From a virus, in the IMG/VR virus record IMGVR_UViG_3300046312_000088, positions 1 to 34,803 of that record: DNA of 34,803 nt; one strand, written 5' to 3'. The notes beneath the pieces were generated by a model, which worked only from the letters and a program-made list of their open reading frames with translations, made no database searches and had not been told where the DNA came from. Each line of letters begins with the position of its first letter. The stretch's first letter is position 1. The position numbers and the translations under genes are program-made. Below are positions 11,508 through 33,722 of the stretch, in pieces.

Positions 11508-11630
11508 AATCCAATTCCTTTCGTAAGCGTCGTCAATAGAACTAAAGCCAAATTGATCAGCAAGACGAATTAAAAATTCACGATCTCTTAATCTATGGGC
11601 TTCATACAAATGAGGCAAATGTATTTGCAT
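11508..11630 (-). other. In-frame N-terminal extension of clamp-like gene (alternative start)
   Basis: The clamp-like frame is open back to an ATG at 11630 that overlaps the preceding stop by one base (TAATG). The added 41 residues (MQIHLPHLYEAHRLRDREFL...) read like real protein, with charged helices. No Shine-Dalgarno precedes 11630, while a strong one precedes 11507. Either a long form is made by stop-start coupling and a short form by direct initiation, or a former small gene has become fused to the clamp-like gene. Confidence 0.5.
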
Positions 11631-21393: not shown

Positions 21394-21591
21394 TCACCAT
21401 ATCCATAAAATTTCTTCATAACTATAACTCGATAACCGTGTCGGCTTTTTGGCAAAGTCGTTCTTGAACCATTGCCACCGATAGCCCACAAATCCGATAG
21501 CACCGTCTGGCAGTTCCTCAGGAACCTTGATCGGCTTCATGATGACTTCCCTGCCGTTCGCCATAAAGCGATATGCTTTGACTTTTGGCAT
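21394..21591 (-). CDS. Hypothetical small protein
   Basis: 65 aa (MPKVKAYRFMANGREVIMKP...), basic, beta-rich. Its ATG overlaps the previous stop by one base (TAATG) with GGGAAG close upstream. The central IGFVGYRWQWFKNDF and C-terminal SYSYEEILWIW are aromatic. No family recognised. Probably translated by coupling from the DUF7303 gene. Confidence 0.66.
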   Translation of the reverse strand: MPKVKAYRFMANGREVIMKPIKVPEELPDGAIGFVGYRWQWFKNDFAKKPTRLSSYSYEEILWIW

Positions 21592-21863
21592 TAAACTTCC
21601 CGCCAAACTACAATGTCATCAGTGTTGTGCAACGTATCGTAACTACACCTAAATGATTTGGTTTTGTCCTTTTTGTTTCGATAATTAATTAACGTTTGCA
21701 TGTTAGTTTTTGTCGTCTCACTTGCTTTCACGATAAAGCATTGGCCGACTTCCAACCGAGAAAAAGGGTATTTTTCCACAAACGCAGATTTTTTCATTCT
21801 TGGTTTATAATTGTCGGTTATTTCTTTAGGAACATCATAGATAGGCCATAGGTTAATATCCAT
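21591..21863 (-). CDS. DUF7303-like small protein
   Basis: 90 aa with AAGGAT about eight bases before the ATG. The segment KYPFSRLEVGQCFIV (about 34-48) matches YPFDKLEVGQSFHV of the protein at 24872-25507. After it both have a helical T-N-x-x-x-L-I-N-Y-R-N-K-like piece. This is the DUF7303 type, found in phages as short proteins, with no known activity. The C-terminus (FRCSYDTLHNTDDIVVWREV) is beta-rich and ends in W-R, as in the larger copy (RVWRTA). Two copies in one phage suggest duplication with different partners. Confidence 0.75.
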   Translation of the reverse strand: MDINLWPIYDVPKEITDNYKPRMKKSAFVEKYPFSRLEVGQCFIVKASETTKTNMQTLINYRNKKDKTKSFRCSYDTLHNTDDIVVWREV

Positions 21864-24269: not shown

Positions 24270-24343
24270 TGCCCGTTCGTTCAATGGTAGGACAGTCGGT
24301 TTTGAGCCGATCAATCTAGGTTCAAATCCTAGACGGGCATCCA
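24270..24343 (+). tRNA. tRNA-Gln (anticodon TTG) with encoded CCA
   Basis: Acceptor TGCCCGT (24270-24276) pairs fully with ACGGGCA (24333-24339). D arm GTTC-AATGGTA-GGAC; anticodon arm GTCGG-TTTTGAG-CCGAT with anticodon TTG; four-base variable loop; T arm CTAGG-TTCAAAT-CCTAG. U1-A72 is a known glutamine tRNA feature. The end is TCCA, so the CCA is encoded. It reads CAA, the codon preferred in this genome (10 CAA to 3 CAG in the large terminase gene, by hand count). Confidence 0.95.
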
Positions 24344-24871: not shown

Positions 24872-25507
24872 ATGGCTAAGGCTTCAATTGCACGTGCGCC
24901 TGTTACCGCACGTGGTATCGAACTTCTCAATCTTATCGCTTCCAGTCAAAATGGCTATTTGATGCTTACTCAGGACGAAGGCGCGGAAGCTGTGGCCGCT
25001 GGCTTCGCAACAGTAGACGCTAATTTGGTTCAAGGCGACATGGCGGCAGTTTCCTTGACTGCGGCTGGTAAGGCTCAAATCGCACCTGAGCCTGTTCCGG
25101 TAGTCCCCGTCGCAACCTTCGCAATCGACGAAGCTATTCCGTTGCCCGCAACTACTGGACGGCGCTCACGCGAAGGTGGTTATCCGTTCGACAAACTCGA
25201 AGTCGGTCAGTCGTTTCATGTGGCGGCTACCGCTGACAACGCCGATCCTGTTTTGAGGCTGCAATCGTCAGTGTCTGCCGCAAAGGCGAGATACGCCGTT
25301 GAAACGGGCGAAACTGAAATAGTAACGGTTAAGGAATATCTCAGGGACGGCAAGGGTTACGTGAAAGACGAAAATGGCAAGCGCGTTGTAGTTGCTACTA
25401 CGTCCGAAACGCGGCCAGTCATGAAAGCGACCCGTAATTTCACTGTCAAGGCTGTGGACGCGAGTGATCCGCGTGGTGCCGGTGCTCGCGTCTGGCGCAC
25501 CGCGTAA
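24872..25507 (+). CDS. DUF7303-like protein with N-terminal helical domain
   Basis: 211 aa with AAAGGA eight bases before the ATG, its own promoter (P7) and a strong terminator, so it is a single-gene unit. Residues 1-70 form a small domain (MAKASIARAPVTARGIELLN, then LTQDEGAEAVAAGFATVD) that may be winged-helix-like. A Pro/Val linker follows, then the DUF7303 segment YPFDKLEVGQSFHV (about 105-118), the KARYAVETGETE helix, and a C-terminal VWRTA end. The single-gene unit with strong signals suggests high, independent expression. It shares its second domain with the protein at 21591-21863. Confidence 0.75.
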   Translation: MAKASIARAPVTARGIELLNLIASSQNGYLMLTQDEGAEAVAAGFATVDANLVQGDMAAVSLTAAGKAQIAPEPVPVVPVATFAIDEAIPLPATTGRRSREGGYPFDKLEVGQSFHVAATADNADPVLRLQSSVSAAKARYAVETGETEIVTVKEYLRDGKGYVKDENGKRVVVATTSETRPVMKATRNFTVKAVDASDPRGAGARVWRTA

Positions 25508-31788: not shown

Positions 31789-32457
31789 ATGGCCTATGAT
31801 CCAAAAGACCCAGCCGACAAAAAGATTGTTGCCGATTTGATCGCGGCTGCTCTTGCTGACGCCGAAGATAAGCACGAAAGCGATATTGCTGGCCTTAAAG
31901 CAAATAACGCTCGCCTTAAAGAGCAACTGAAAAAAGCAACAGCCGGTGAAGCGAATGCTGAGGAAATAACGAAACTTGAAAGTGAATTGGCAACTTCGCA
32001 AGCCAAACTCAAAACGGCTGAAAAAGACTTGATCAAGATAACAAAAGAACGTGATGAAACTGTTAAAACATTGGAAGCTGAAACCGGCTTTACACAAAAA
32101 CTTTTGGTAGATAATGGTTTGACCGAAGCCTTGGTTAAAGCCAACGTAACGAAACAGTTTTTGCCAGCCGTCAAGGCTTTGCTCGCTAGTAAAGTAACTC
32201 TTAAAGTTGACGGCGATAATCGCGTTGCAATGGTTGGTGACAAACCGCTTGGTGAGTTTGTCGATAGCTGGGCGAAAGGCGATGACGGTAAGCATTATGT
32301 TGCGGCACCTGCTAATGGCGGTGGCGGCTCAAATGGCGGGACTAGTAAAACAGGTAGCGGCAAATCTATTAGTCAGACTGGCTTTGATGCAATGAAACCA
32401 AGCGAACGAGCGGCGTTCTTTGCCGAAGGTGGCGTTATTTCTGCCGATGTGGCTTGA
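31789..32457 (+). CDS. Scaffolding protein
   Basis: 222 aa, with GGAAAG about eight bases before the ATG. Residues 20-105 are a long coiled coil rich in Lys/Glu (KLESELATSQAKLKTAEKDL). A compact part (LTEALVKANVTKQFLPAVKA) and a Gly/Ser linker follow, with a C-terminal helix (FDAMKPSERAAFFAEGG). This is the usual make-up of phage scaffold proteins, which bind the coat protein through the C-terminal helix and leave before packaging. Place directly before the coat gene supports it. Confidence 0.85.
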   Translation: MAYDPKDPADKKIVADLIAAALADAEDKHESDIAGLKANNARLKEQLKKATAGEANAEEITKLESELATSQAKLKTAEKDLIKITKERDETVKTLEAETGFTQKLLVDNGLTEALVKANVTKQFLPAVKALLASKVTLKVDGDNRVAMVGDKPLGEFVDSWAKGDDGKHYVAAPANGGGGSNGGTSKTGSGKSISQTGFDAMKPSERAAFFAEGGVISADVA

Positions 32458-32482
32458 CAAGGCAATTTATCTAACGAATAAA

Positions 32483-32556
32483 CGATTTGCTGAGAGTTGG
32501 GCTTTCGGCAAATCGCAGTTGGGCTGCACTTCGCCAGCGAGTTGGGCTTGCTAGGC
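32483..32556 (+). ncRNA. Coat-gene leader: repeated AGUUGGGCU hairpin loops
   Basis: AGTTGGGCT occurs at 32495, 32517 and 32540, 22-23 bases apart, in the 131-base gap between scaffold and coat genes. Copy 1 is the loop of a 12-bp stem (32483-32494 with 32504-32515, two G-U pairs). Copy 3 is the loop of a 7-bp stem with one bulge (32533-32539 with 32549-32556). Copy 2 can form a weaker, interrupted stem that competes with both. AG/CU can pair inside each loop, leaving UUGGG. The coat ribosome site (AGGAAAGG, 32574-32581) follows. Confidence 0.75.
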
Positions 32557-32588
32557 TTTCACCTTAAATTTCTAGGAAAGGCTTACAC

Positions 32589-33722
32589 GTGGCCAATACG
32601 CTTTCTGCGCTCGCACCTACGCTTTTTAGTGCGGCTAAAGAAGTTGCCGCCGAACCTTTCGGCTTGGTAAATGCTATCAATACGTCTTTCGATGACAAAG
32701 GCGTTGCTATTGGCGACCTCGTTCAAGTTCCTTACGCTCCCCCGCGCACTGCAAGCGATTTTGTGCCTAACAACATTGCGGGCACGGGCAGCGATGCGAC
32801 GGCTTCGACAATCGCGCTCCAAATCACCAAGAGCCGTAAAGTCGATTGGAATTTGACTGGCGAACAACTTCGTTCGCTGCAAAACGGCGGAAACGACCAA
32901 GATTGGGTTAAACAGCTAGTCCTTCAAGGAATGAGGACGCTTCGCAATGAAGTTGAAATTGATGCAGCTATTGCTGTCAAGGTTGGCGCTTCGCGAGCGG
33001 TTGGCACAGCCGGAACGTCACCTTTCGCATCCGATCTGAATTTGCTGGTTGACGCCCGAAAAGTCCTTCAAGACAACGGCGCACCGCTCGCCGATATGCA
33101 GTTTGTTGGCGACACCGCCGCTGGCGCAGCGCTGCGCAAACTCGGTATCATCCAAAATGTCTATCAAGCTGGTAACGATGAAGAACGCCGTAGCGGCAAT
33201 CTGCAACGCCAGTTTGGCTTTATGCCGCGTGAAAGTGCCGGTATTCGAACGCACGTTAAAGGCACGGGTGCGAGTTACACTACAACGGCGACTGGTTTCG
33301 CGGTTGGCACAACGTCTATTCCGATCATCACCGGCACCGGCACGGTTGTGCCCGGCGACGTAGTAACGTTCGCTGGCGATCCTAATCGTTACGTTGTAGC
33401 CAGCGGCGTTTCTGCGCCGGGAACAATCACCCTTTCGTTCCCCGGATTGAGGCAAGCCATCCCAGCCGCTGCTACGGCGATGACGATTGGCAACAGCTAC
33501 ACGCCGAACCTTGCGTTCGAACGCAATGCTGTTGTGGGGACACTTCGCCCGCCGCTCATTCCTGCCAACCCGACAATTCAGCAATTGCCAATTTCTGACA
33601 ATTTCGGCATGACTTATCTTATGCTGCAAATTGCTCAATACGGCCAAACGACATGGGAACTTCATCTGGCGTGGGGCTTCAAGTCGATCAATGGTGAATT
33701 TTCTGCTCTTATGCTTGGTTAA
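32589..33722 (+). CDS. Major capsid protein (P22 coat-like)
   Basis: 377 aa from a GTG with AGGAAAGG seven bases upstream, the strongest site in the head operon. The order MANTLSALAPTLFSAAKEVA, then DLVQVPYAPPR, LTGEQLRSLQNGG, an inserted domain around FAVGTTSIPIITGTGTVVPG and DVVTFAGDPNRYVV (about 235-290), and a final LQIAQYGQTTWELHLAWGFK fits P22 gene 5-type coat proteins. These form the HK97-fold shell; the inserted beta domain is typical of the P22 group. High expression is expected from the ribosome site and the structured leader. Confidence 0.87.
   Translation: MANTLSALAPTLFSAAKEVAAEPFGLVNAINTSFDDKGVAIGDLVQVPYAPPRTASDFVPNNIAGTGSDATASTIALQITKSRKVDWNLTGEQLRSLQNGGNDQDWVKQLVLQGMRTLRNEVEIDAAIAVKVGASRAVGTAGTSPFASDLNLLVDARKVLQDNGAPLADMQFVGDTAAGAALRKLGIIQNVYQAGNDEERRSGNLQRQFGFMPRESAGIRTHVKGTGASYTTTATGFAVGTTSIPIITGTGTVVPGDVVTFAGDPNRYVVASGVSAPGTITLSFPGLRQAIPAAATAMTIGNSYTPNLAFERNAVVGTLRPPLIPANPTIQQLPISDNFGMTYLMLQIAQYGQTTWELHLAWGFKSINGEFSALMLG

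Follow-up and report, generated by a model that had tools for sequence, protein, structure and literature searches.

In a 34,803-nucleotide viral DNA (IMG/VR record IMGVR_UViG_3300046312_000088, positions 1 to 34,803; hereafter the window), we identified a leader ahead of the coat gene that forms three hairpins carrying one and the same pentaloop, UUGGG. Leaders of this build also precede the coat genes of related phages, which, as judged from comparison of their sequences, retain the hairpins yet switch all loops of a leader together. In most of these leaders, one of the three hairpins is predicted to be traded for masking of the coat Shine-Dalgarno (SD) sequence, namely H3 in the subtype to which the window belongs and H2 in the commoner subtype. 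We think it rather probable that phages with P22-like coats possess a regulon comprising scaffold, coat, major tail, tape-measure and head-tail adaptor genes, in which the loop is a phage-specific address read by a putative factor; in this reading the address would have been replaced many times, each time throughout the leaders of a phage. Somewhat less firmly, we lean towards the view that the leader is an RNA switch, in which a putative loop-specific trans factor would bind the repeats, open the SD sequence and turn coat translation on.

A pentaloop repeated three times between the scaffolding and coat genes

The leader lies in the 131 bases that separate the scaffolding protein gene (31789..32457, + strand; phrog_206, head scaffolding protein, E 1e-18) from the downstream coat, or major head protein, gene (32589..33722, + strand; phrog_283, E 3e-66). 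The coat also matches Pfam P22_CoatProtein with an E of 6e-5, which is below the cut-off. This intergenic stretch holds all three copies of the 9-mer AGTTGGGCT, which are found on the + strand at 32495, 32517 and 32540, 22 and 23 bases apart. A pattern count over the whole window returned no fourth copy, confirming what an earlier note on this DNA had reported from inspection. The chance expectation for AGTTGGGCT in the window is 0.22, and three copies appeared in 0 of 100 shuffles; when only the leader was shuffled, some 9-mer was present three times in 30 of 20,000 shuffles.

Folding gives every copy a UUGGG loop and a hairpin of its own. H1 (32483..32515, + strand; loop 32497-32501) has 14 pairs and a folding energy of -20.8 kcal/mol, with a z of -6.6. 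H2 (32515..32527, + strand; loop 32519-32523) has the short stem GCAG/CUGC. H3 (32533..32556, + strand; loop 32542-32546; -13.3 kcal/mol) has a stem of six pairs, one bulged A and three further pairs, the outer stem being GCC/GGC. The stem lengths in the earlier note were close to these, with the exception that H1 has 14 pairs rather than 12 bp. That note had further held that the second copy could form only a weaker stem borrowed from the arms of its neighbors, and that it would thereby exclude the other two hairpins. This claim was wrong: the second copy has its own GCAG-UUGGG-CUGC hairpin, base 32515 is the sole overlap between H2 and H1, and all three hairpins coexist in the predicted fold of 32478-32565 (-37.8 kcal/mol). 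We refer to leaders with three hairpins, one pentaloop, a loop spacing of 19-27 bases and a virion gene downstream as class A, and the leader in the window has each of these features.

A promoter-like site, TTGACA and AATAAA separated by 17 bases (32454..32482, + strand), was read directly from the sequence and ends where H1 begins. Of the 23 class A leaders listed, 11 have TTGACA or TTGACT in a comparable position. A strict sigma-70 scan did not include 32454..32482 in its list, as the second hexamer lacks the final T and is weak. We infer that the site acts as the promoter of the coat leader; the transcript start predicted from it falls inside the 5' arm of H1, and the outermost H1 pairs may therefore be missing from that transcript.

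Elsewhere in the window, the protein encoded at 33992-34519 matches a DnaT-like single-stranded DNA-binding family in Pfam (E 7e-35) but the head-tail adaptor Ad1 in PHROGs, and we read it as an adaptor because the gene order favors this assignment. Pfam DUF7303 is matched twice, at 24872-25507 and 21591-21863 (minus), the second match being partial and weak. A single tRNA-Gln (anticodon ttg) is located at 24270-24343.

Class A leaders in related phages and covariation of their stems

Relatives were sought by coat-protein scans combined with DNA pattern scans, which yielded 24 distinct class A leaders before P22-like coat genes. Among 398 Sphingomonadales genomes, two had a match, the class A leaders L151 and L440, which are counted in the 24. 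Most relatives are metagenome fragments, so further leaders could be sought in phage parts only. R1, a covariance model trained on 12 class A leaders, recovers nearly all of the others, and the three nearest neighbors of the window score 28-36 bits. The window leader itself stays below the R1 threshold at E 5 because its H2 stem differs, and its placement in class A comes from its own structure together with its neighbors L088-L090, which R1 finds. The counterparts of this H2 are GCGG-UUGGG-CCGC in L089 and L090 and CCGG-loop-CCGG elsewhere. In searches against Rfam 15, no family reached its gathering score, with the exception of tRNA; the window leader had zero matches at E up to 10, and the best match of the L384 leader, Chloroflexi-1, scored 27 bits where the cut-off is 80. 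Among the open-access papers searched, none dealt with repeated loops ahead of coat genes.

The stems of H1 and H3 covary among the related leaders. When 3' arms were exchanged among 23 leaders, H1 gave 137 paired cells and H3 gave 115; the shuffle maximum was 105 for each, and 0 of 2,000 shuffles reached the observed value in either case. Per-pair covariation counts on a subset of leaders agree with this result. The test is silent on H2, as the CCGG stem hardly varies. The check proposed in the earlier note, a covariance comparison with leaders from related phages, has thus been carried out, and it found the expected compensating changes. Furthermore, G-U outnumbers A-C in class A stems by 34 to 12, which indicates that the stems are RNA, read from the coding strand. 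A reading at the level of DNA, with the stems as palindromic protein sites, is not favored, because the stems tolerate G-U far more than A-C.

The loops of a leader change in concert

The loop UUGGG is found in the window, L089 and L090, while other class A leaders display CUGCG, UUGCG, CAGCG, CAGGG or CUAGG-like loops, for a consensus of about Y-N-R-S-G. The loop core (positions 3-4) is the same in all three hairpins of 23 of the 24 leaders (permutation mean 3.4, maximum 10), and the whole loop is the same in 17 (permutation mean 1.2, maximum 7); kinship among the leaders weakens these permutation figures, from which the count of at least eight changes of the loop core on the coat tree is independent. 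Some of the concerted change seen on that tree could stem from recombination that exchanged entire leaders. It had been proposed at the outset, from the differing stems in the window, that the loop is what is kept. This holds within one leader, but between phages the loop varies as well.

Predicted masking of the coat Shine-Dalgarno sequence

In the predicted default fold of the window, the coat SD sequence AGGAAAGG (32574..32581, + strand) is masked, and freeing it costs 6.5 kcal/mol. The anti-SD segment UAGGCUUUC (32552..32560, + strand), which overlaps the outer 3' arm of H3, is predicted to pair with 32576-32585, giving the helix UAGGCUUUC/GAAAGGCUUA; this helix comes from a single predicted fold, and the subtype that has it consists of four leaders, that of the window and L088-L090. 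In the predicted ensemble, the probability of H3 is 0.01 and that of an unpaired SD is 0.16. The accessibility of the window SD is mildly below that of its own shuffles, 25% of which are equally low. A pattern scan for more UUGGG leaders with the SD helix of the window returned already-known ones and unrelated matches only.

The commoner class A subtype uses a different strand: the bases 5' of H2 and the H2 5' arm, often with the loop, are complementary to the coat SD region. In L384, 11 contiguous pairs (CUCCGGUUGCG/CGCAACUGGAG) join the H2-side strand to the SD region. Judged by such predicted energies, SD masking covaries in the H2 subtype: the H2 arm and loop score -17.0 kcal/mol against their own SD region and -13.7 kcal/mol against the SD regions of other leaders, a result obtained in 1 of 20,000 permutations. 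Across class A, the predicted probability of an unpaired SD is 0.16, compared with 0.33 when the upstream sequence is shuffled, and 14 of 14 leaders fall below their own control (p 1e-4). A separate test on 23 leaders placed 19 below the shuffled control (p 3e-5), with 4 of the 23 not more masked than shuffles. The same type of ensemble prediction against shuffles showed no SD masking in class B, a sister class described below, nor in relatives that lack the element; the two classes thus do not share masking. According to these predictions, the SD of class A leaders is paired by default and exposed in an alternative fold.

The same loops ahead of other virion genes

Contig L099 carries a second leader in which CAGCG occurs three times, on H1 and H3 stems unlike those of its coat leader. 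CAGCG is also the loop of the L099 coat leader, and it is found in none of the other coat leaders of the set of 24. The gene after this second leader matches a tape-measure family weakly (Pfam TMP_2, E 9e-4) and sits within the usual order of tail genes. Similarly, L366 has a second leader with the loops CCAGG/UUAGG/UCAGG ahead of its head-tail adaptor gene (phrog_477), and the loops of its coat leader are CCAGG/UUAGG/CUAAG, a nearly identical set carried by other stems. The window shows one leader; its record stops soon after the coat gene, and a second leader would be out of view. The occurrence of one loop on different genes of a phage, on differing stems, is the strongest sign that the loop is read in trans.

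Class B leaders consist of two, sometimes three, hairpins with GGAU loops, spaced 22-24 nt apart. They are situated before the coat gene and, about 850-950 bases upstream, before the scaffold gene, in phages of E. coli, Klebsiella, Rhizobium, Caulobacter and Salicola; both coat and scaffold leaders are present in the named phages L146, L141, L145, L140, L142, L143 and L138. Their stems covary as well. The class B model R2 gave 45 matches in 100 loci, all on the coat strand and nearly all at coat or scaffold leader positions, and class B leaders have no Rfam match. In L174 and L168 both the coat and the scaffold leader have GAA-type loops, whereas their relatives have GGAU in both. The GAA-type leaders of L174 are located at about -895/-876 and -66/-44 relative to the coat start, and L168 has its coat leader at -78/-57 in addition to its scaffold leader.

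On G423 (contig L125), a third class B leader is present at 11564-11605 on the minus strand, before a gene of 244 aa whose product resembles a major tail protein and was identified by eye only. Both this major tail identity and the tape-measure identity in L099 are weak. In ON470595.1 (L141), the CDS at 42308-43144 is annotated as coat but is the scaffolding gene by position and clustering. A class B leader overlaps the annotated start of this CDS, and the true start is therefore probably further downstream.

Proposed switch and the reader of the loop

We propose the following sequence of events. Three hairpins would display one pentaloop, UUGGG in the window, and a loop-specific trans factor, encoded by phage or host, would bind the repeated loops. 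In unbound mRNA the coat SD would be sequestered by a helix that overlaps one hairpin with its 5' strand, so that two loops would always be displayed and the third only when the ribosome site is open. A factor seated on the displayed loops could then capture the third, thereby stabilizing the open form and turning on coat translation, in step with the other virion genes that bear the same loop. Because the hairpin competes with the SD helix, binding would have to favor the hairpin, and hence an open SD. We infer both the existence of such a trans factor and activation as its direction. On the modeled folds, unmasking of the ribosome site is probably the means by which the loop reader would control translation.

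Candidates for the reader include a host protein, a phage protein that evolves fast, and an RNA. For a shared regulator, BLAST clustering of ORFs from 15 phage records and from the class A contigs gave virion and packaging genes only, a procedure that may miss distant or very short proteins. Pfam searches of 20 small ORFs of the window found no RNA-binding regulator. The earlier note had envisaged a loop-binding partner, perhaps the coat protein, the scaffold or a host factor, or else another RNA, that controls coat translation. A trans factor is still the simplest reading, but the coat is disfavored in this role.

Feedback by the coat or scaffold protein, which would bind the loops and repress translation when in excess, is an unlikely explanation. 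Such feedback operates in RNA phages and, through the scaffold, in P22. The element precedes the coat gene in every case and the scaffold gene too in class B, and three close sites would suit an oligomer. However, the coats of L342 and L358 are 86% identical and their loops are CUGCG and CUAGG; those of L344 and L366 are 85% identical, with the loops CUGCG and CCAGG/UUAGG. Conversely, coats of 40-49% identity carry one loop in common, for example CUAGG at 40%. With near-identical coats differing in loop and distant coats agreeing, the coat is disfavored as reader, and the scaffold is likewise made unlikely by the 10 loop-core changes that its tree needs, next to the eight on the coat tree. The element also stands before tape-measure, adaptor and probable major tail genes.

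To a similar degree, we doubt that the leaders are constitutive 5' hairpins that shield abundant late mRNAs or serve in their processing, with the loops kept for stability or as cleavage sites. The promoter-like site of the window does end at H1, and it is highly expressed virion genes that carry the element; this explanation nevertheless leaves unaccounted for both the concerted change of the loops and the way the anti-SD strand tracks its own SD.

Slightly more doubtful is that the loops are CsrA/Rsm sites bound by this host translational repressor. CsrA recognizes a GGA core in hairpin loops, and the GGAU loops of class B, in hairpins 22-24 nt apart, match that core. However, GGA is absent from the class A loops, UUGGG included; GAA loops occur in the coat and scaffold leaders of two class B phages; and no GGA loop overlaps the SD. 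Equally questionable is pairing of the loops with a trans RNA, that is, a small RNA of phage or host. Repetition within a leader and variation between phages are what pairing would allow, and several leaders already show pairing between the H2 loop and the SD region, but the 7-mer complement of the window loop occurs once in the window, the relatives have no consistent complementary place, and the narrow loop consensus would be unneeded for free pairing. Finally, a put-like antiterminator that acts in cis by modifying RNA polymerase is highly improbable: the hairpins do lie near the start of the late transcript, but put sites do not depend on a repeated loop code, and this reading would leave the SD masking unaccounted for.

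The post-transcriptional balance of scaffold, coat and tail proteins in double-stranded DNA phages is poorly known. If our reading is true, an RNA address common to several structural genes would constitute a new layer of late gene control, offer a direct handle for finding the loop reader, and represent a natural series of orthogonal RNA-factor pairs. Loop swaps make the question testable in class B phages of E. coli and Rhizobium that have already been isolated.

Comparison with known systems

In its proposed action the leader resembles a translational switch with a masked SD, of the Com-mom kind in phage Mu, combined with repeated loops in a CsrA-like layout. In the coat operators of the RNA phages MS2 and PP7, as in our proposal, a hairpin with a recognized loop controls the translation of a phage gene. 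These operators consist of one hairpin, which the coat reads to repress the replicase, whereas class A has three equal loops, an unlikely reader in the coat, a double-stranded DNA phage as its setting and several virion genes as its targets. Judged indirectly, from sequences, loop and coat do not change together in class A as they would in such an operator.

In phage Mu, Com is generally described as acting by exposing a masked SD of mom. Com binds mom RNA and activates its translation (PMC6483171). This system resembles the switch proposed for class A, which would likewise act on translation of a phage mRNA with a masked SD, but it has a single target and no repeated loop. Among the window ORFs scanned, none encodes a Com-like zinc-finger protein.

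CsrA/Rsm leaders likewise combine several hairpins, one loop core per leader and translation control. They differ in that class A has no GGA in its loops, which vary between phages in concert, and in that class B includes GAA variants; GGA is present in the class B loops except in L168 and L174. The TwoAYGGAY RNA motif, reportedly described by Weinberg in 2010, is said to comprise two hairpins with the same loop core and to require AYGGAY loops. Class B loops follow C or U and a paired base rather than A, and they match no Rfam family. The put RNA of HK022 forms two hairpins at the 5' end of early phage transcripts and brings about antitermination; unlike class A, it is not known to have a repeated loop code or SD masking. 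We have filed the leader as a cis-regulatory leader RNA, of which the loop code is the new part.
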